Origin: Chthoniobacterales bacterium
GTDB lineage: Bacteria > Verrucomicrobiota > Verrucomicrobiia > Chthoniobacterales > JACTMZ01
Reading direction: 5' to 3'
Assembly (NCBI GenBank): GCA_014879535.1
Contig: JACSRX010000052.1
Location: forward strand, 1 to 58,333
DNA length: 58,333 nt
Made by a program: the position numbers and the translations under genes. Numbering within the stretch: the stretch's first letter is position 1; each line of letters opens with the position of its first letter. Shown here piece by piece: positions 2,314 to 11,716 of this stretch. A model generated the notes under the pieces. The model did no database searches and was not told where the DNA came from. It saw nothing but the letters and a program-made list of their open reading frames with translations.

Positions 2314-5300
2314 TCAGCCCCGCCGGAACAGGATGGCAAGCCGGCGGCGCTCACGCCAACCGACGGCGGCCAGCAACATCAGGACGGCGGCGTAAGTGCC
2401 GGGTTCCGGAATCGGGGTGAGATCGGCAACAACCTCGCCGTCAGACAGGAACTTGGCACCATAGAGGGTGCCCCCGATGTTGAAATTGATCTGCGCAAGC
2501 TGATCCACCGTCAGCGCACTCATGCTGTTGCCGAAATACAACCGGCCGTAGGCGCCGCTCTCGCTGTTGGTCAACTGGGACCAGTTGGTGATGGTGAGGG
2601 TGCCTGTCCAAGCAATGCTGCTGCTGTCCGCAAAGTTGAGATCACGCAGTCCCGCCCCGTCCTCCCAGCTGCCAAAGTCGATGATGGAACTGGAGTTGAG
2701 GGTCAAGGTGCCCAGCACCTCCGAGAAGCCGGTCGTGCTGGTGCCGGTGATGAACGTCCCCCCGTCCAGATCCATCCCGACCGCATCATTGATCTGGTCG
2801 TTTGCCGCAAGCTGAACCGTGGCTCCGGAGGCGATGCGCAGGCCGTTGGACGTGTTCGTCGAGGAAATCGCGGTGACGCCGTCGGTCTTGCTCAGCACAA
2901 GCGTGCCCGCCTGCACATCCGTGTTGCCGGTGAACGTGTTGTTCGTCGTCCCCGCGACCACGAGGACGCCGTCGCCGGTCTTCGTGATCCCCCCCGATCC
3001 GTCCAGCGTGCCGCTCAGGGTGTTCGTCGTGCCGGCGGCGGTGTCGTAGGTCGTGTTGTTGAGGGTCACCGAACCGCTCAACGTGTTGTTCCCCCCGGCG
3101 AACGCCACATTGTAAACACTCATGTCGTTGGCAACCGTCCCCGCATTGGAAAACTGCAGCGTGGAGGCCCCGCTGGTCTGCGTGACATACCCCGTGCCAA
3201 GCGCCGTGGAACCGCCCACCCGCAGCATGCCGGCCGCGAGCGTGGTGCCGCCGCTGTAGGAACTGCTGCCGCTCAACAAAAGGGTGCCGCTACCCGATTT
3301 GACCAGGGAACCGGCTCCACTGATGGTCTGGGCGAATGACGAATTGGTGCTGGTGTTCACCGTGAGCGTTCCCCCGGCCACGTTGAGCTGCCCCCCGCCC
3401 GATCCCGCAAGGCCGCCCACTGTGGCATTCGTCAGGAATGACACCGTGCCCGCGGTGATGTTGAGATTCGCCAGATTGTTCGCCGTGTTCCCCAGCGTGA
3501 GCGTGGAACCGCCGGCCTTGGTGATGCTCCCGTTGGTCAGGGCCCCCGCAATGGTCGTCCCGACTTCCGTCGTCAACGTGCGCGTGGTGCCGCCGAGATT
3601 GATGCCTGTTGTCGAGGTGAACGACAAGGCCCCCGTCCCTCCCGAAGTCTGACCGAAGGTGACATCCCCGCCCAAGACCAATGCGTTCGCAAAGGTGCGC
3701 GCTGTCGAATCCGTCGAGACCAGCGTGCCGCCGTTCAAGGTGACCAGACCTGAAGAACCGCCGAGAGCCGCATCATTGCCCACCCTGACCACCCCGGAAT
3801 TGAGCGTGAATCCACCGGTGAAAAGATTCGCCTGCTCGAGCGACAGCGTGCCGGCGCCGTTCTTGATCATTCCGCCCGCGCTCGCGGTCGAACTCCAAAC
3901 GACCCAGTTGAGATCGAGATGGCCGCTGCTGCCGACGTCGAACGTGCGGACGGCGTTGTTGAGATTGAGCCGCACCGCACCGCCCCCGCTGTTCGAGAAC
4001 TGGGCCGTGGTGCCGCTGTTGACAGTCAAGTTCCCGCCGAGCACCACGGCGTTGTTGTTGCCGCTGGCATTGCTATAGTCGAACACAACACTCCCCAAAG
4101 TCGCTCCGCTCAAGAGATCGTAACGGGAGCCTGTCCCACTGGCTGTAAGGGTGCCCCCCGTCAAAGTCGCCGAGGACATAAGCAAGTTGCCGCTACCCAC
4201 ATTGACACTGCCTCCCGACATCGTGAGCGACGCAATCGTATTGGTCCGAGTGCCCACATCGAATCCACCCGAGGTCATCGTGATGTTGGCGGTCGACGCG
4301 ATCTGGTTGTGAGCCGTGTTGGTGAAGCTCAGTGTCCCACCGTTGATCAGGATGTCGCCCGCAATGGTGGTGCCGCTTCCCGCGAGGCGCAGGTTGCCTC
4401 CGCTGATCGTGGTGAGCCCGCTGTAGGAGTTGTTGCCTGAGAGCACCAATGTGCCAGCGCCCATTTGTGCGAGGGTGCCACTGCCGGAGATGTCACTCGA
4501 GTTGGTATAATTGTTGGAACGGTCGATGACCAAGGCGCCATTGTTCGTGACATTTCCCACGCCCAGTTGGCCCGTCGTGCCACCATTGCCGACCCGCAAT
4601 GTTCCGCCTGAGACGAGCGTGCCGCCGCCATAGTTGTTGGCCCCGGTGAGCGTGACAGTCCCGGCGCCCGTCTTGGTCAGCGAGTTGGACACCGCGCCGG
4701 TGAAATTCGTGATCGCACCGCTGACCGTGACGGCCGCATTGGTGCCCGCCTCCAAGGTGATCCCGGCATTGGCAAGACCGATCGGACCGCTGTAGGTCGC
4801 ACTCGCCGAAGAGCCTTGGTCCTGCATGCCGATCACACGGGCCTGCTGGTTGGTGGTGCTCACATAAATGGCATTTGAGACCGTGACGCCATTGCTGACG
4901 TAGAGCCGCGAGGCTGCATCCACGATGCTGCCGTTCAAATCGACGCCAAGGTCGATGCCGTGTCCGAGTCCAGCAACGCCCGTCCGGGAGATGATCGTCC
5001 CCGAACCGATGATGAGGGTGCCGTTGCCGATGCGCACCTGATAACGGTCGGAGCTGGAAATTCCGCTGCCATTGTTCGTCACGATGAGCGTCCCGCCCCC
5101 GTCGATGGCCAGCCTGTTGACACCCCCCACGGAGGTGTTGACGGTGATGCCTCCCCCGAAAAGCATCGTGCCTCCCGAGGCGACATTGATCGCCATGCTG
5201 TTGGTGTTGAGCGTGATGGATCCCAACTGTGTTCCCGTCCCGGAATTCGCCGCATAGGAGAGCGTCCTGGTGCCCGTGCCGCCGCCTTCCACGGTGATGG

Positions 5301-6543
5301 CATTGCTGTTGATGATTCCGGAGCCGATCTGCAAGGCCGAGGTGGCCGCATTGGTCGTCGCCCCGATAAAGATCGTGCCGGCGGAACCCATCGCATTGTT
5401 GTTGCTCAGCACCACGGTGCCCTCACGAATGTATTTGTTTCCCGCCCAGGCGTTACTCGCCATCAGGATGGCCGTCCCGGTGTTGGTCTTGACGAATGCC
5501 GTGCCGCTCCCGCTGTTGGTCGCGCCGCCGGCAACGGTCGTCGTGCCCGCCCCGACAACCCACCACTGATTGGTTCCGGCCGAGACATTGCTGATGGTCA
5601 ATTGCGCCCCGGAGTCGGCCCCTACATAGGCCGTGTTCGTCATGCTGATCAGTCCGAGGTAGGCATTGTTTCCACTGGCAGACACGAGCGCACCACCATC
5701 TCCCACGCCGGTGCCGCCGAGCGACAAGGCTTCGCCGGACACCGTGATCCCGTTGCTGAGCCGGAGCGTGGCGCCCGACCTCACCGTCGTCCCCGAGTTT
5801 GTTGACCCCAAACCGCTGTTGTGGGCGACAGTCAAAACACCCGCATGGACCACGGTGGCCCCGGTGTAGGTGTTGCTCCCCGCAAAGACAGCCCGCGTCG
5901 ACCCCATGCCGGTGTCGTTGCCGTTGAAACTGTTCGTGCCGACCACGATGGCATTGCTGCTGGAACCACCGATCGACCCGTTGAACGTGATCACGCCGGC
6001 GGTGTTCGATCCGCCGATTCCAAGGAATGTGGCGCGGTTGGTCACCTCGACGTCACCGCCGAATGTCAGTCCTCCGGAGCCCCGGGTGAGGATGAACATG
6101 GGTGCATCCGCATCCGTGCGGCGGAAGGAAACATTCAGGTTGATGCTCTGCGTGGCGGAGGAATCGCTCAGAATGCCGCCATTGGTGCCGCCGTAGTCGA
6201 AGAAATTCACCTGACCGCCGCCCAAGGTGTAGGCTTGGCTTCCGCTGAAATAGAAGCGCCACTGGCTTTGCGTCCCGCTGTTGTTCCAACTGGTCTGGTT
6301 GCCGCCACCCGTCCACTGCAATTGGCCGTAGCCGTAAGCCGTGCTCCAATTGGCCGCATCACTCCAATTCGTCCCGCTCCCCTGCCATGTCGGGAAGGAT
6401 TGCGCGGAAAGATCACAAAGCGAAAAACTTCCGACTGCAACCCAGGCAAGAAAGAGCCGCAAAAACAAGAAACGACCGCCCCCGCCGGTTGCATGCCGGC
6501 AGCGGACGCAAACAGAGTCGTCGCCTGTGCGTTGGTTCAACAA
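2314..6543 (-). CDS. Giant autotransporter-type beta-strand repeat protein with PEP-CTERM anchor
   Basis: 1409 residues, low complexity, rich in Gly/Thr/Asn/Ser. The N-terminus has a hydrophobic export signal (RLFLAWVAVGSFSLCDLSAQ). From about residue 50 to 1370 the chain is made of beta-helix units. At least six match the autotransporter-associated repeat, for example GAGTLVLSGNNSYSG, GTGTLLLSGSSSYSGG and GAGTVTLTGANNYGGG, each followed by a 'GTLRVG'-like turn. The last about 33 residues are a PEP-CTERM sorting signal: PEPGTY, a hydrophobic helix, then the basic stop WRERRR. It is therefore probably an exosortase-processed surface or matrix protein. The start is doubtful: the first codon after an in-frame stop is TTG at 6543, there is no Shine-Dalgarno sequence, and no ATG or GTG is available before the signal peptide. 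Confidence 0.88.
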   Translation of the reverse strand: MLNQRTGDDSVCVRCRHATGGGGRFLFLRLFLAWVAVGSFSLCDLSAQSFPTWQGSGTNWSDAANWSTAYGYGQLQWTGGGNQTSWNNSGTQSQWRFYFSGSQAYTLGGGQVNFFDYGGTNGGILSDSSATQSINLNVSFRRTDADAPMFILTRGSGGLTFGGDVEVTNRATFLGIGGSNTAGVITFNGSIGGSSSNAIVVGTNSFNGNDTGMGSTRAVFAGSNTYTGATVVHAGVLTVAHNSGLGSTNSGTTVRSGATLRLSNGITVSGEALSLGGTGVGDGGALVSASGNNAYLGLISMTNTAYVGADSGAQLTISNVSAGTNQWWVVGAGTTTVAGGATNSGSGTAFVKTNTGTAILMASNAWAGNKYIREGTVVLSNNNAMGSAGTIFIGATTNAATSALQIGSGIINSNAITVEGGGTGTRTLSYAANSGTGTQLGSITLNTNSMAINVASGGTMLFGGGITVNTSVGGVNRLAIDGGGTLIVTNNGSGISSSDRYQVRIGNGTLIIGSGTIISRTGVAGLGHGIDLGVDLNGSIVDAASRLYVSNGVTVSNAIYVSTTNQQARVIGMQDQGSSASATYSGPIGLANAGITLEAGTNAAVTVSGAITNFTGAVSNSLTKTGAGTVTLTGANNYGGGTLVSGGTLRVGNGGTTGQLGVGNVTNNGALVIDRSNNYTNSSDISGSGTLAQMGAGTLVLSGNNSYSGLTTISGGNLRLAGSGTTIAGDILINGGTLSFTNTAHNQIASTANITMTSGGFDVGTRTNTIASLTMSGGSVNVGSGNLLMSSATLTGGTLTASGTGSRYDLLSGATLGSVVFDYSNASGNNNAVVLGGNLTVNSGTTAQFSNSGGGAVRLNLNNAVRTFDVGSSGHLDLNWVVWSSTASAGGMIKNGAGTLSLEQANLFTGGFTLNSGVVRVGNDAALGGSSGLVTLNGGTLVSTDSTARTFANALVLGGDVTFGQTSGGTGALSFTSTTGINLGGTTRTLTTEVGTTIAGALTNGSITKAGGSTLTLGNTANNLANLNITAGTVSFLTNATVGGLAGSGGGQLNVAGGTLTVNTSTNSSFAQTISGAGSLVKSGSGTLLLSGSSSYSGGTTLAAGMLRVGGSTALGTGYVTQTSGASTLQFSNAGTVANDMSVYNVAFAGGNNTLSGSVTLNNTTYDTAAGTTNTLSGTLDGSGGITKTGDGVLVVAGTTNNTFTGNTDVQAGTLVLSKTDGVTAISSTNTSNGLRIASGATVQLAANDQINDAVGMDLDGGTFITGTSTTGFSEVLGTLTLNSSSIIDFGSWEDGAGLRDLNFADSSSIAWTGTLTITNWSQLTNSESGAYGRLYFGNSMSALTVDQLAQINFNIGGTLYGAKFLSDGEVVADLTPIPEPGTYAAVLMLLAAVGWRERRRLAILFRRG

Positions 6544-6767: not shown

Positions 6768-8084
6768 CTATTCCCGCAGTGCCGCCGACAGACGCGACTC
6801 CACCAAACCCTCAATATGGCCGCGAAGTTGCTCGTCGGGCAGCCGGTCGAGCACCGTGTTGAAGAAGCCCATGACAAGCAATTGCCTCGCCTCCGCCGGA
6901 TGGATTCCACGCGCGAGGAGGTAGAAAAGCTCGCTGTCATCCACCTGGCTGGTGGTGGCGCCGTGCGTGCAGCGGACGTCGTCGGCCTCGATCTCGAGTC
7001 CGGGCATGGAGTTGGCCTCGGCCTCGTCGCTGAGCACGATGTTGCGGACCTTCTGGTAGGCGTCGGTCTGGTGGGCGCCGGGTTCAACGCGGATCACGCC
7101 GGAGAATATCGTCCGCCCCTTGCCGGTCAGCGCGTTCTGGTAGAGCAGATCGCTGGTGGCACGTGGCTTCGCATGGTCTTGGAATGTGCGTTGGTCGATC
7201 ATCTGCTCACCGGCGGCGATGTTGACCGAGAGCATGTCGCTGCGCGCGCCCTCGGCCACCATGCGGCTGTAGCTTTCACCCCGCACAAAGTGTCCGCCGA
7301 GGTTCATCTGCATGCCGAGGCAGGACGCGTCGCGCCCGACCGTGGTCGAATTCAGGTGGAATGCCGTGGCATCGAGGCTCCACTGCTGGATGGCGACGTA
7401 GTTGAGCCTGGCGCCGTCGCCCACCACGAGGTCATTCACCCCGCAGGCCAGTGCGGGCGCGCCATCCGCGCTGCGGAAGCAATCCACGACCGTCGCTTTG
7501 CTGTGCCGCCCGCATACCACGAGGGTGTGCGGGAACACGGCGGAGTTCCCGCCCTCGACCCAATGGAAAATTTCGATCGGAAGCGGGACCTCGAGGTTGT
7601 CCGGGACGCGGACAAAGACCCCGGCCACCGGGCCCGAACGGTGGAGCGCGGCGAATTTGCGCGAACCGAGCTTCGCCTCCTGAGCCATGAAATGCTCCTG
7701 CACAACGTCCGCGTGCGCGACCGCGGCCTCCTCCAGACTCATGACCACAAGCCCGGCTGCGACGAGGTTCTCCGCGGGTGCGGTGGCTGCGAGCAACCGG
7801 TTGTTGCCGAAAACAAAACGTGCCGCCGCCTCACCCAGACCAGTCGAGCGGGCGACAAGATCGCCGCCATCAGTCACGGCGCCGGGATAGCGGAAGGCCT
7901 CCAAGTCGAGGGCCTTGACGTTCGAGAAGCGCCAGGATTCATCTTTGATCTTCGGTAGCGGGAGCGATTGGAACTCTTCCCAACCATGGCGCCGCGATGC
8001 GGCAAACCATTCGGGCCAGGAACCCTCGACAAGGGAGCCCTCCATCAGGGGGACGCCGGGGATGGATGTCATGACGTTGTGCAC
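6768..8084 (-). CDS. sufD: SufD, Fe-S cluster scaffold complex subunit
   Basis: 438 residues. The C-terminal half carries the SufB/SufD family core, for example LSVNIAAGEQMIDQRTFQDH, GVIRVEPGAHQTDAYQ and CTHGATTSQVDDSELFYL. SufD pairs with SufB and SufC in the SufBC2D complex that assembles Fe-S clusters. I chose GTG 8084 because it sits 5 bases after a strong AAAGGAG. An in-frame ATG at 8099 overlaps the sufB stop as TGATG and is the alternative. It is the last gene of the fur-sufC-sufB-sufD operon. No SufS desulfurase or SufE/SufU is seen nearby, so the sulfur donor must be encoded elsewhere. Confidence 0.93.
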   Translation of the reverse strand: MHNVMTSIPGVPLMEGSLVEGSWPEWFAASRRHGWEEFQSLPLPKIKDESWRFSNVKALDLEAFRYPGAVTDGGDLVARSTGLGEAAARFVFGNNRLLAATAPAENLVAAGLVVMSLEEAAVAHADVVQEHFMAQEAKLGSRKFAALHRSGPVAGVFVRVPDNLEVPLPIEIFHWVEGGNSAVFPHTLVVCGRHSKATVVDCFRSADGAPALACGVNDLVVGDGARLNYVAIQQWSLDATAFHLNSTTVGRDASCLGMQMNLGGHFVRGESYSRMVAEGARSDMLSVNIAAGEQMIDQRTFQDHAKPRATSDLLYQNALTGKGRTIFSGVIRVEPGAHQTDAYQKVRNIVLSDEAEANSMPGLEIEADDVRCTHGATTSQVDDSELFYLLARGIHPAEARQLLVMGFFNTVLDRLPDEQLRGHIEGLVESRLSAALRE

Positions 8085-8098
8085 GGTGTCTCCTTTCA

Positions 8099-9508
8099 TC
8101 AGCCGACCGAGCCCTCCATCTCCAAGTCGATGAGGCGCTTGAGTTCCACGCTGTATTCCATCGGGAACTGGCGCACGAGGTCGTTGACGAACCCGTTCAC
8201 GCTCAGGCTCATCGCCTGCCCCTCGGTGAGCCCGCGCTGCTGCATGTAGAAAATCTGCTCGGCACTCACCTGGCTCACGCTCGCCTCGTGCTGGCAGGCG
8301 TTGCCCGTGCCGCGCACGGTGATCGCCGGATAGGTGTCCGTGCGGCTGCTCTGATTGATCAGCAACGCGTCGCACTCGGTGTTGTTCTTGCACCCCTTGA
8401 GGTGCTTCGGCACATGCACGAGGCCTCGGTAGGTTGCCCGCCCCGTGCCGACGCTGATCGACTTCGACACGATGTTGCTCGTGGTGTCGTCGGCGGCGTG
8501 GATCATCTTCGCCCCGGTGTCCTGGTGTTGTCCGTCGCCGGCGAGCGCGATGGAGATGACCTCGCCGCGCGCCCGGGCCCCCTTCATCACGACGCCCGGA
8601 TATTTCATCGTCAGGCGCGAACCGATGTTGCAGTCGATCCACTTGATCTCGGCGTCCTCCATGGCCAGCCCGCGCTTGGTCACGAGGTTGAACACGTTGT
8701 TGCTCCAGTTCTGGACCGTGATGTATTGGATTTTCGCGCCCTTGAGCGCCACCAGTTCGACGACCGCGCTGTGCAGCGTCGCCGTGTCGAACTTCGGCGC
8801 GGTGCAACCCTCCATGTAGGTGACCTCGGCGCCCTCGTCGGCGATGATGAGCGTGCGCTCGAACTGTCCGAAATTCTCCGCGTTGATGCGGAAGTAGGCC
8901 TGGAGCGGATGCGAAACCTTCACTCCCGGCGGCACGTAGATGAACGACCCACCGGAGAACACGGCGCTGTTGAGCGCGCTGAATTTGTTGTCGCCGGTGG
9001 GAATCACCTTGCCGAACCACTTGCGGAAAATCTCCGGGTGGTCCTTGAGTCCGTCCGTGCTGCCGACGAAGATCACGCCCTGCTTGCCCACGGCCTCCTT
9101 GATGTTCGAGTAGGCCGCCTCGCTGTCGAACTGCGCCTCGACGCCGGCGAGGAACTTGCGCTCCTGCTCCGGAATCCCCAGGCGCTCGAAGGTGCGCTTC
9201 ACGTCCTCAGGCACCTCGTCCCAGCTCCGTTTCGGCGTCCGGCCCTGCGCGAGGTAATAGCGGATGTTGTCGAAGACGATGTTGTCCAGGTCGTGCGACG
9301 CCCAGTGCGTGGGCATCGGCTTCGCGAGGAATTTTTTCAGCGCGTCCTTGCGGAACTCGCGGATCCAATCCGGCTCGTCCTTGACGTCGCAGATGTAGTC
9401 GATTGTCGCCTCGGTCAACCCCGTCCCGGCGTCGAACTCGTAATCCACATCGTAGCGGAAGTTCCCCTTCTCGCGGTCGATCTCCAGTTGTGTCTGCGTG
9501 TCGCTCAT
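8099..9508 (-). CDS. sufB: SufB, Fe-S cluster scaffold subunit
   Basis: 469 residues, close to the usual length of about 470-495. Family blocks are clear: [17 protein letters not shown] near the N-terminus, [20 protein letters not shown] and [20 protein letters not shown] in the middle, and GSRTD-like RTDTYPAI followed by [22 protein letters not shown] near the end. ATG 9508 (MSDTQTQLE) is preceded by GGGGA; a TTG at 9544 is an unlikely longer start. SufB is the scaffold on which clusters form, driven by SufC ATP hydrolysis. It overlaps the alternative sufD start and lies 32 bases after sufC. Confidence 0.96.
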
Positions 9509-9540: not shown

Positions 9541-10305
9541 TCAAGCCACCACGGGCTCGGCCTCCTGTTCGTTGGCCCAGTCGTAACCCTCGGCCTCGAG
9601 TTTGAGGGCCAGATCCTTGGTGCCGCTCTCCACGATCCGGCCATTGACCATCACATGCACGAAATCCGGCACGATGTAGTTGAGCAGCCGCTGGTAGTGG
9701 GTGATGACGAGCATCCCGATGTCCGGGCCGCGCAGGGAGTTGACCCCGTGCGAGACGACCTTGAGGGCGTCGATGTCCAACCCGCTGTCCGTCTCGTCGA
9801 GCAGCGCGAAGGAGGGCTGCAGCATCGCCATCTGGAGGATCTCGCAGCGCTTCTTCTCGCCGCCGGAGAAACCCTCATTGACCGAGCGCGAGGTGAAATT
9901 GCGCGGCATCTGCAGGAGGTCCATCTTCTCGTAAAGCTTCGCGTAGTAATCCGTCGCCTCGAGTTCCTCGCCCTCGGGCAACCGCGCCTGCAGGGCGGCG
10001 CGGAGGAAGTTGGCGATTGTCACACCCGGAATCTCGCTCGGGTATTGGAAGGCGAGGAACACACCTTTGCGCGCGCGCTCGTCCGGCTCCATTTCGAGGA
10101 TGCTCTCGCCGTTGAGCAGGACATCGCCTGCTGTGACGGTGTAATCGGGATGGCCGGCGATGACTTTGGCCAGCGTGCTTTTTCCGGAGCCGTTGGGCCC
10201 CATGATGGCATGCACTTGGCCGGCCGGAAGGTCGAGGGTGAGGCCCCGCAGGATCTCGCGGTCGCCGATGCTGGCATGAAGATTTTCGATGCGGAGGTTT
10301 TTCAT
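9541..10305 (-). CDS. sufC: SufC, Fe-S assembly ATPase
   Basis: 254 residues, an ABC ATPase of the SufC type. It has Walker [10 protein letters not shown] (near residue 35), a Q-loop at [10 protein letters not shown], the SufC-type signature [14 protein letters not shown], Walker [13 protein letters not shown], and the switch His in [12 protein letters not shown]. SufC is a soluble ATPase that binds SufB and SufD and is not a transporter component. It starts 7 bases after the fur-like gene and precedes sufB, so all four genes are likely co-transcribed. Confidence 0.96.
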
Positions 10306-10312
10306 AGGGATC

Positions 10313-10765
10313 TCAGTGGTGGTGCTTGCGGCACGTTGCGCAGAGCCCGTGCAGGGACACTTCCTGCTGGGTCACTGTGTAGCCGCGTGGCAGTTGGTGG
10401 AGTTTTTCCAGTTCCGCGCCCGGAAGCAGCGGAACGTCGAGCACCGCACCGCACGCCGTGCAGGTGAAATGCCCGTGTTTGGAATTGTTGGCACAGTAAC
10501 GCGTGGAGCCGCTGTCGAGGTGGACTTTGCGCACCAGCCCGCGGTCGGCGAGGGTCTCGAGGACGTTGTAAACTGTTGCGAGGGAGAGTGATTTCATGTC
10601 CGGCCTCGCACGCAAAAACACCTCCATCGCCGTCGGGTGATCCTGCTGCCCGAGCAGGACCTCGTAAACATGCTTGCGCTGGCGCGTGAGCCGCAAACCA
10701 TCCTGCGCAATCGATTCCTCGTAGCGCTTGAGCTGGCTTTCGGAATTGGCCCTCTTTGTGTGCAT
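10313..10765 (-). CDS. Fur/PerR-family metal-responsive repressor
   Basis: 150 residues from ATG 10765. The winged-helix part has [12 protein letters not shown] and the recognition helix [12 protein letters not shown]. The metal sites are visible: HPTA (PerR-like His), SKHGHFTC (His-x-His), two structural-zinc Cys pairs CTAC and CATC, and a terminal RKHHH. The HPTA and VLD motifs resemble PerR somewhat more than Fur, but the sensed signal cannot be settled by reading. As the first gene of the suf operon it probably represses Fe-S assembly genes in response to iron or peroxide. A matching palindrome overlaps its own -35 box. The -10 box ends 8 bases before ATG, suggesting a leaderless transcript; a TTG at 10783 is an alternative start. 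Confidence 0.9.
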
Positions 10766-10773
10766 CCCTTTGC

Positions 10774-10802
10774 AAGATATCAACCCCGACGAATTGTTTC
10801 AA
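10774..10802 (-). promoter_or_regulatory. Promoter of the fur-suf operon
   Basis: On the minus strand TTGAAA (10802-10797) and TATCTT (10779-10774) are separated by 17 bases. The -35 box overlaps the Fur-family palindrome at 10799-10815. The -10 box ends 8 bases before ATG 10765, so the mRNA would start about 2 bases before the start codon. Confidence 0.55.
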
Positions 10803-10815
10803 GAATAATTCTTAA
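10799..10815. promoter_or_regulatory. Fur/PerR-type operator box
   Basis: TCAAGAATAATTCTTAA is an inverted repeat of 8-1-8 with a single mismatch (inner AAGAAT-A-ATTCTT perfect). The length and spacing are those of Fur-family boxes. It overlaps the -35 of the fur-suf promoter and lies 86 bases upstream of the divergent ABC transporter, so one site could control both. No second copy was seen in the window. Confidence 0.6.
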
Positions 10816-10900
10816 TAAGGGGCTGCTCAGCCGCGGCAAATCCGGCGCCGCAGGCGAGTCCTTGTTCGTGATTTCGCCGGGTTCGTGCCTTAATCGGGGA

Positions 10901-11716
10901 ATGTCCGCGGTGAACTTCGCCATGCTGCTGATCTTCGCCTGTGCAGGTCTTGCGCAGGGCGCCGATCCGCCCGCCCGTGTCGTCAGCCTCGCCCCCAACC
11001 TGACCCAGATGGTGTTGTCGCTCGGGGCGGAAAACCGCCTCGTTGCCGTGACGCCGTTTTGCGAAGCACCCACCGCAATCCCCCGGCTCCCCGGGGGCAT
11101 CCAACCGGAGGCGGAAGCCATTGTTGGCCTGTCCCCGGATCTTGTGCTGGCCACGCCCCTGACACCATCCATCATCCGGACCCAACTCAAGGCCCTCGGG
11201 TTTCGCGTGGAAATCGTGGACGCCACCTCCTTGGAAGGCATCCGCTCCTCGATCTCCCGCTTGGCCGGAATTCTCGGGATCGCCGCGCCGGGGAATCCCG
11301 CGCCAACCGCAGCCCAGACGGGTTCAACCGCCGTCCTGCTCTTCGGGGCGAACACCGGTTACAGCGCCGCGCGGGGAACCCACGCCCACGAAATCCTCGA
11401 GGCGGCCGGACTGCGCAACATCGCTGCGGATACCGCCGGTCCATGGCCCCAACTCGGGGAGGAGGTGCTGCTGGCAGCGGACCCGGACTACATCATCGTG
11501 GCGGACTACGGAGCAGCGACCTCGCAGGATGTCCTTGCCAACTTGCGCTCCCAACCGGTGCGGCGCCATTTGGCGGCGGTGCGCAACGACCGTGTCATTG
11601 TGTTTCCAGCCGAGGCATTCAGCATCCCCGGACCGGAAGCCCTACACGCGGCGGAAAAATTGCGCGCCGCCATCCACAGCCTCCCCGCTCCCTCGCCGCG
11701 CGGGCGCAACTCATGA
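10901..11716 (+). CDS. BtuF/FecB-like periplasmic binding protein of a metal-chelate or B12 ABC transporter
   Basis: 271 residues. A signal peptide (MSAVNFAMLLIFACAGLAQG) is followed by the class III binding-protein start RVVSLAPNLTQMVLSLGAENRLV and then PEAEAIVGLSPDLVL, both typical of BtuF and related siderophore-binding proteins. GTHAHEILEAAGLRN and PDYIIVADYG are second-lobe motifs. The ligand (vitamin B12, heme or Fe-siderophore) cannot be read. The upstream Fur-family box argues for iron, whereas the opening motif is most like BtuF. The stop overlaps the ATPase start as ATGA. Confidence 0.85.
   Translation: MSAVNFAMLLIFACAGLAQGADPPARVVSLAPNLTQMVLSLGAENRLVAVTPFCEAPTAIPRLPGGIQPEAEAIVGLSPDLVLATPLTPSIIRTQLKALGFRVEIVDATSLEGIRSSISRLAGILGIAAPGNPAPTAAQTGSTAVLLFGANTGYSAARGTHAHEILEAAGLRNIAADTAGPWPQLGEEVLLAADPDYIIVADYGAATSQDVLANLRSQPVRRHLAAVRNDRVIVFPAEAFSIPGPEALHAAEKLRAAIHSLPAPSPRGRNS

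Follow-up and report, generated by a model that had tools for sequence, protein, structure and literature searches.

The window, by which we mean the whole stretch of 58,333 nucleotides analyzed from a Chthoniobacterales bacterium, carries on its minus strand the gene order fur, sufC, sufB and sufD. The first gene (10,313–10,765) encodes a fur-type regulator of 150 aa, P0001, with the predicted sensor residues H43, C91, H97, H99 and D110, followed by sufC (9541–10,305), sufB (8099–9508) and sufD (6768–8099, with a putative start), which score above the cut-offs of TIGR01978, TIGR01980 and TIGR01981, respectively. The regulator gene thus stands ahead of the suf genes, as the initial annotation had it. 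Downstream of sufD, the minus strand at 2314–6543 holds an autotransporter-like ORF of 1409 aa with six passenger-associated transport repeats (PF12951). Divergently, the plus strand encodes a substrate-binding protein of the BtuF/heme-binding type (10,901–11,716), then an ATPase, a FecCD/BtuC-type permease and an OsmC-like protein. Proteins of solved structure that bind B12 or heme are similar to the BtuF-like protein, which reaches no NCBIfam equivalog cut-off; its gene is unlikely to be a conserved target of the operator described below.

Between both transcription units lies TCAAGAATAATTCTTAA (10,799–10,815, read on the plus strand), an 8-1-8 near-palindrome in which 7/8 arm pairs match, considered here a putative operator from its motif and conservation, with binding predicted. 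The pattern TTAAGAATNATTCTTAA, at up to three mismatches, occurs once in the window versus 0.02 times expected from 100 shuffles, so the near-palindrome with one mismatch reported earlier is real and above chance. Regarding the predicted promoter, a -35 element TTGAAA (10,797–10,802, minus strand), kept at 10/10 genus loci, and a -10 element TATCTT (10,774–10,779, minus strand, from the consensus scan only) are separated by a 17-base spacer, with 9/12 consensus matches; this is the sole promoter-like site that the scan finds in 10,600–11,100, where 0.1 are expected. The operator overlaps TTGAAA by four bases, confirming the placement of a Fur-family box over the -35 of fur-sufCBD, and its ends lie 33 bases from the fur ATG (first base 10,765) and 85 bases from the btuF ATG (10,901). 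With transcription predicted to start some two bases ahead of the fur ATG, the transcript may have almost no leader.

Conservation of the box and of its suf linkage

A fur ortholog is present in 10/11 genus genomes, 78–90% identical, and none was found in the remaining member, G005, which is 65% complete. Read on the fur strand, AATTATTCTTGAAA is identical at 10/10 genus loci, preceded by TTATT in nine of them and by CTATT in L013, while box position -4 is G in five members and T in five. The consensus of the order Chthoniobacterales is TTTAGAATnATTCTTGAT, from which the ten genus boxes differ at two to four positions. Among 50 further distinct upstream regions of the order, 18 have no mismatch to it, 19 have one, six have two, three have three and four have four, thus 50/50 within four, and 0.1% of the shuffled upstream regions come within three. 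From the 70 genus and order loci, L037 and L071 (upstream DNA too short) and eight duplicate upstream regions were omitted. The initial annotation had staked its proposal on the palindrome being kept in relatives that share the gene pair, and for fur-suf these genus and order counts bear it out.

In class loci of other orders, the box takes the form of a cleaner palindrome, TTAGAATnATTCTAA. There, 30/33 boxes lie within four mismatches of the order or the palindromic consensus and 20/33 within three, versus 0.45% of shuffles; L179–L181 have a weak box, with six or seven mismatches to the palindrome. The same holds for the named loci, 80 records that overlap the genome set, as 79/79 scored are within four mismatches of one of both patterns (one was unscored for short upstream DNA). 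Over the order and palindromic patterns, 0–0.5% of shuffled upstream regions reach three mismatches or fewer, the shuffles being random walks that keep dinucleotides and are not exhaustive.

Order and class boxes differ in symmetry. The outer arm is asymmetric in the order, with 0/50 boxes symmetric at ±7; class boxes are symmetric in 28–30/30 at ±2 to ±4 and in 22/30 at ±7, but they were chosen by a palindrome-like pattern, which favors symmetry, and 3/33 under the score limit were omitted. Although the near-palindrome pointed out in the window stands, its near-perfect symmetry is missing in some close relatives, as the split at -4 in the genus indicates. At -5/+5, the class boxes carry A-T in 15, G-C in six, G-T in six and A-C in three (n = 30), which gives a weak hint of paired change.

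The linkage to suf genes is also kept. Next to fur, sufC is found at 10/10 genus loci, 60/60 order loci outside the genus and 32/33 class loci, and the class exception, L205, has a sufB-like gene (43%) directly after fur. At the 80 named loci, the next match after fur is sufC in 58 and sufB in 20; in L117 and L172 no next match exceeds the limit, and the contigs stop 181 and 137 bases past the fur match, respectively, with the start of sufC still present in L117. Both L248 and L249 also have sufC. Where the following gene is sufB (20/80), it is only 41–45% identical to that of the window. This second version of the operon, with the order fur, sufB and sufC, is seen at L129, L134–L136, L138, L139, L149–L151, L153, L154, L159, L161–L163, L166, L170, L171, L173, L174 and L205. 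Since fur and the box are retained while the suf operon is another version, the machinery seems to have been exchanged under one regulator. In L202, L203, L182, L183 and L197, gaps of about 0.6–1.8 kb separate sufC and sufB. Some records that hold proteins of the suf-linked group (L146, L151, L153, L159 and L163) bear the titles Nitrospinaceae, Akkermansia muciniphila or Proteobacteria, which may be wrong.

Distribution of the box beyond the fur-suf promoter

At up to three mismatches, TCAAGAATAATTCTTAA occurs at one place in its own genome (3,166,665 bases, 97 contigs), and the backward control at none. The genome-wide scan for matches at iron genes that the initial annotation suggested thus gives this single place in 3.17 Mb, at the fur-suf locus. 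A global regulon was discarded, there being no second convincing box in the genome; C9:43874 has three mismatches. A scan of 57 order genomes with TTTAGAATnATTCTTGAT at up to one mismatch yields 35 places in 34 genomes (control, one match), and 32/35 are within about 150 bases of a suf-linked fur gene. The other three are G022:C45, which falls inside a large ORF, G023:C370 and G035. Among the order genomes lacking a match are those of the fur-less family and of the genus itself, in which the box is more divergent. Extra matches also occur in G120 and G071; in G136, no fur frame follows the match, and in G096, a fur gene start is cut by the contig end. Because 32/35 matches lie at fur-suf, the suf-linked regulator looks like a dedicated autoregulator and not a global iron regulator.

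Three Fur-family genes are encoded in the genome of the window, that of P0001 and one each on contigs 45 and 5. The contig 5 gene (L033), divergent from a ZnuA gene, is probably Zur, because its best PDB match is Streptomyces Zur, and the contig 45 gene is Fur-like, with a Fur-type site judged by eye. It could be proposed that the box belongs to this canonical contig 45 Fur as global iron regulator, the suf-linked protein doing something else, and the predicted Fur box of Riemerella, ATTTAGAATTATTCTAAAT, is indeed of the same type as the one found here, in a study where Fur was gel-shifted on promoter fragments (PMC5609570). However, a single good site in the genome of the window is unlike a global iron regulon, and G017, having a Fur-like gene and no suf-linked one, carries its suf genes without the box, which leaves this proposal very improbable.

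The suf loci without fur are also informative as to whether the conserved stretch is an operator at all. Seven such loci of the order (L236 and L238–L243) have no box, with at least six mismatches, and a Pfam search detected no Fur-family gene in six of their genomes (G067, G036, G028, G018, G077 and G090, with the loci L236, L238–L241 and L243), whereas G017 has the Fur-like gene mentioned above. These six genomes belong to family f9 of the order and measure 2.9–4.5 Mb. G035 (L237/L290) differs, as the box stands 97 bases before sufC and no Fur-family gene is detected in a genome 97% complete; this box may be a relic, the sign of a genome gap or evidence against the operator reading. If the stretch were only a promoter element, a -35 with an AT-rich flank, its retention in G035 would be expected, as well as the TTGA of the -35 within the right arm of the order box, and the asymmetry of the order arm might be what such an element alone would give. 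Against this, 7/8 suf promoters without fur in the order do not have the stretch, and class boxes, although picked by a palindrome-like pattern, form palindromes in which the TTGA arm is mostly missing, so that a promoter element alone is hardly probable.

The initial annotation proposed that the divergent transporter gene shares this operator, which would tie chelate uptake to Fe-S assembly, but the position of the gene in the genus does not sustain that claim as a general feature. A btuF ortholog exists in all 11 genus genomes and is divergent from fur in only 4/11 (G000, G001, G002 and G010). Upstream of the seven relocated copies, no box is found within 400 bases in six (six to eight mismatches), and the seventh, L272, shows a degenerate core with 2/14 mismatches to the inner stretch and six to both full patterns. 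The gene facing fur in the genus is BtuF in four cases, an AmiA-like secreted protein in five (one of these five being Pfam-tested) and an ORF with an integrase core, scoring below its Pfam cut-off, in one; the genus box travels with fur-suf, whichever gene lies opposite. Outside the genus, no BtuF match (at least 50 or 60 bits) adjoins fur in 60 order and 33 class loci, nor in the 80 named loci apart from the genus members L095 and L100. A shared operator as a conserved arrangement was rejected from the position of btuF in the genus. That the regulator nevertheless represses fur-sufCBD and the transporter together would agree with the divergent layout in those four genomes, with G010, where 15 bases separate the box from the likely btuF ATG, and with the L272 core, but the relocations, the loci examined outside the genus and the lack of a promoter-like site on the plus strand by consensus scan of 10,600–11,100 make it unlikely. 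Co-regulation is possible in the four divergent genomes and would be at most a local extra. Control of btuF by a cobalamin riboswitch was also rejected, as none was found in the window, where only a tRNA appeared, or at the 11 btuF loci.

Sensor residues and the suf-linked clade

P0001 belongs to the Fur superfamily, scoring 86.3 bits against PF01475 (cut-off 23.1), which 26/26 members of A1 also match, and reaches 97.2 bits against the NCBIfam PerR model, whose cut-off is 180. By sequence (2fe3) and by Foldseek, its best PDB match is PerR of Bacillus subtilis. The PerR box is of the 7-1-7 type, like the operator in the window. PerR senses peroxide when Fe mediates the oxidation of its His residues. 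The AlphaFold2 model of P0001 has a mean pLDDT of 87.6, with PerR and Fur structures as best matches and a TM of 0.83 by target to 3f8n (PerR-Zn-Mn) in Foldseek.

The site of B. subtilis PerR consists of His37, Asp85, His91, His93 and Asp104 (PMC4866751). A constant offset of six in the sensor part relates it to H43, C91, H97, H99 and D110 of P0001, so that four of the five residues are kept and Asp85 is replaced by a cysteine in every suf-linked row. All five are invariant in 70/70 genus and order rows (duplicates included, 62 distinct genes) and in 80/80 named rows. The 33 class rows all keep H43, C91, H99 and D110, and one of them has an asparagine for H97. Of five further class rows, 5/5 have C91, and L252 shows a phenylalanine in the column of H97, next to an insertion. 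Among 22 homologs without suf genes nearby, the Cys91 position holds Asp in 21 and Glu in one; these were drawn from the best matches listed and not at random, and L262 has about 350 bases after the gene. Three of the 22 come from family f20, which also holds the suf-linked Cys members L198 and L199. In the tree, the suf-linked proteins group into a single clade (support 97/88, recovered in 96% of bootstrap trees), and the long branches flagged lie outside it.

Meanwhile, the four cysteines of the structural Cys4 site, present in 70/70 order rows, are found in only 11, 4, 8 and 7 of the 33 class rows, so Cys91 is the constant cysteine. Outside the order, most suf-linked Fur proteins (L175–L207) have lost the structural Cys4 zinc site and retain the His-Cys-His-His-Asp set. 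Because of those class counts, zinc or a [2Fe-2S] cluster bound at Cys4 is unlikely as a general signal.

Comparing the site with published families, Fur has a Glu at the PerR Asp104 position (PMC4866751), where the suf-linked proteins have D110 in 70/70, 80/80 and 33/33 rows. Zur resembles P0001 in that a Cys ligand replaces Asp85, but has no counterpart of His37 (PMC4866751); in P0001 and all its suf-linked relatives (70/70, 80/80 and 33/33 rows), H43 is invariant, together with D110. The importance of this Zur cysteine is seen in the Streptomyces C79S and E. coli C88S variants, in which function was abolished (PMC6103462). As judged by sequence, the His-Cys-His-His-Asp set fits neither PerR, Fur nor Zur as published. 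No DeoR match is obtained for P0001 at an E of 0.001, which separates it from SufR.

A probable suf-encoded autoregulator of the Fur family

Taken together, the palindrome probably serves as operator for P0001, the product of the first gene, which would be a dedicated autoregulatory repressor of the Fur family with a PerR-type pocket bearing a cysteine in place of Asp85. Autoregulation by fur, as first suggested, appears the likely circuit, as the regulator gene is in the operon and the predicted operator lies over its own -35 and is kept with fur-suf. The evidence is sequence-based: the box, its overlap with a promoter-like -35, its retention alongside fur-suf, its rarity elsewhere in the scanned genomes, its absence at seven fur-less suf loci and a residue that tracks suf linkage. 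From it we infer the binding, the repression and the ligand of P0001. A ligand-loaded dimer would sit on the box, block the -35 and repress its own operon, and loss or destruction of the ligand would raise SufC, SufB and SufD together with the regulator. Such release could follow from a shortage of labile iron, from impaired Fe-S assembly or from oxidants. The ligand is likely to be held by H43, C91, H97, H99 and D110, with Fe2+ as the first candidate and Zn2+ or an Fe-S species as further ones. Counting against this operator model are the G035 box without fur, the weak boxes of L179–L181, the asymmetric outer arm in the order and the scan matches G022:C45 and G023:C370, neither of them located at a fur gene.

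Fur-type control of suf genes has precedents. E. coli Fur represses suf (PMC8593673), and PerR of S. mutans represses sufCDSUB with Fe2+, described by its authors as the first direct link between PerR and suf; there, unlike here, perR stands apart from the suf genes and has no other Fur-family member beside it, and the bases bound are not precisely delimited (PMC11631912). In B. subtilis, too, PerR differs from P0001, which is encoded in the suf operon. E. coli Fur also ties Fe-S status to regulation within the same family, through a [2Fe-2S] cluster at Cys93/Cys96 (PMC12538065), but the counterparts of these cysteines are mostly missing here (C102 in 11/33 and C105 in 4/33 class loci). A functional parallel is SufR of Cyanobacteria and some Actinobacteria, likewise a dedicated autoregulated repressor whose gene lies at the suf locus and whose operator is palindromic, but of the DeoR type, with four C-terminal cysteines for a [4Fe-4S] cluster and another operator (PMC8593673). 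Among open-licence papers, searched by title and start of abstract, we found none that describes a suf regulator of the Fur type for Verrucomicrobia, and a paper giving the suf genes of a methanotroph mentions no Fur in the sections available (PMC3404531).

A more far-reaching and rather doubtful extension is that the suf-linked protein is a class-wide Fur-family counterpart of SufR/IscR, whose His-Cys-His-His-Asp site would have evolved from the iron/peroxide site of the PerR type and would read Fe-S or iron-thiolate status, independently of Cys4 in many members, in a suf-only feedback. What appears new in the sequences is a Fur-type form that is suf-encoded, class-wide and apparently single-target, with a site mixing His and Cys. 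A Fur-family protein whose gene lies at the suf operon appears to be in use across much of one bacterial class, probably of the Verrucomicrobiota and with Akkermansia likely among the genomes covered, and the Asp-to-Cys change that marks the suf-linked clade falls in a well-studied metal site.
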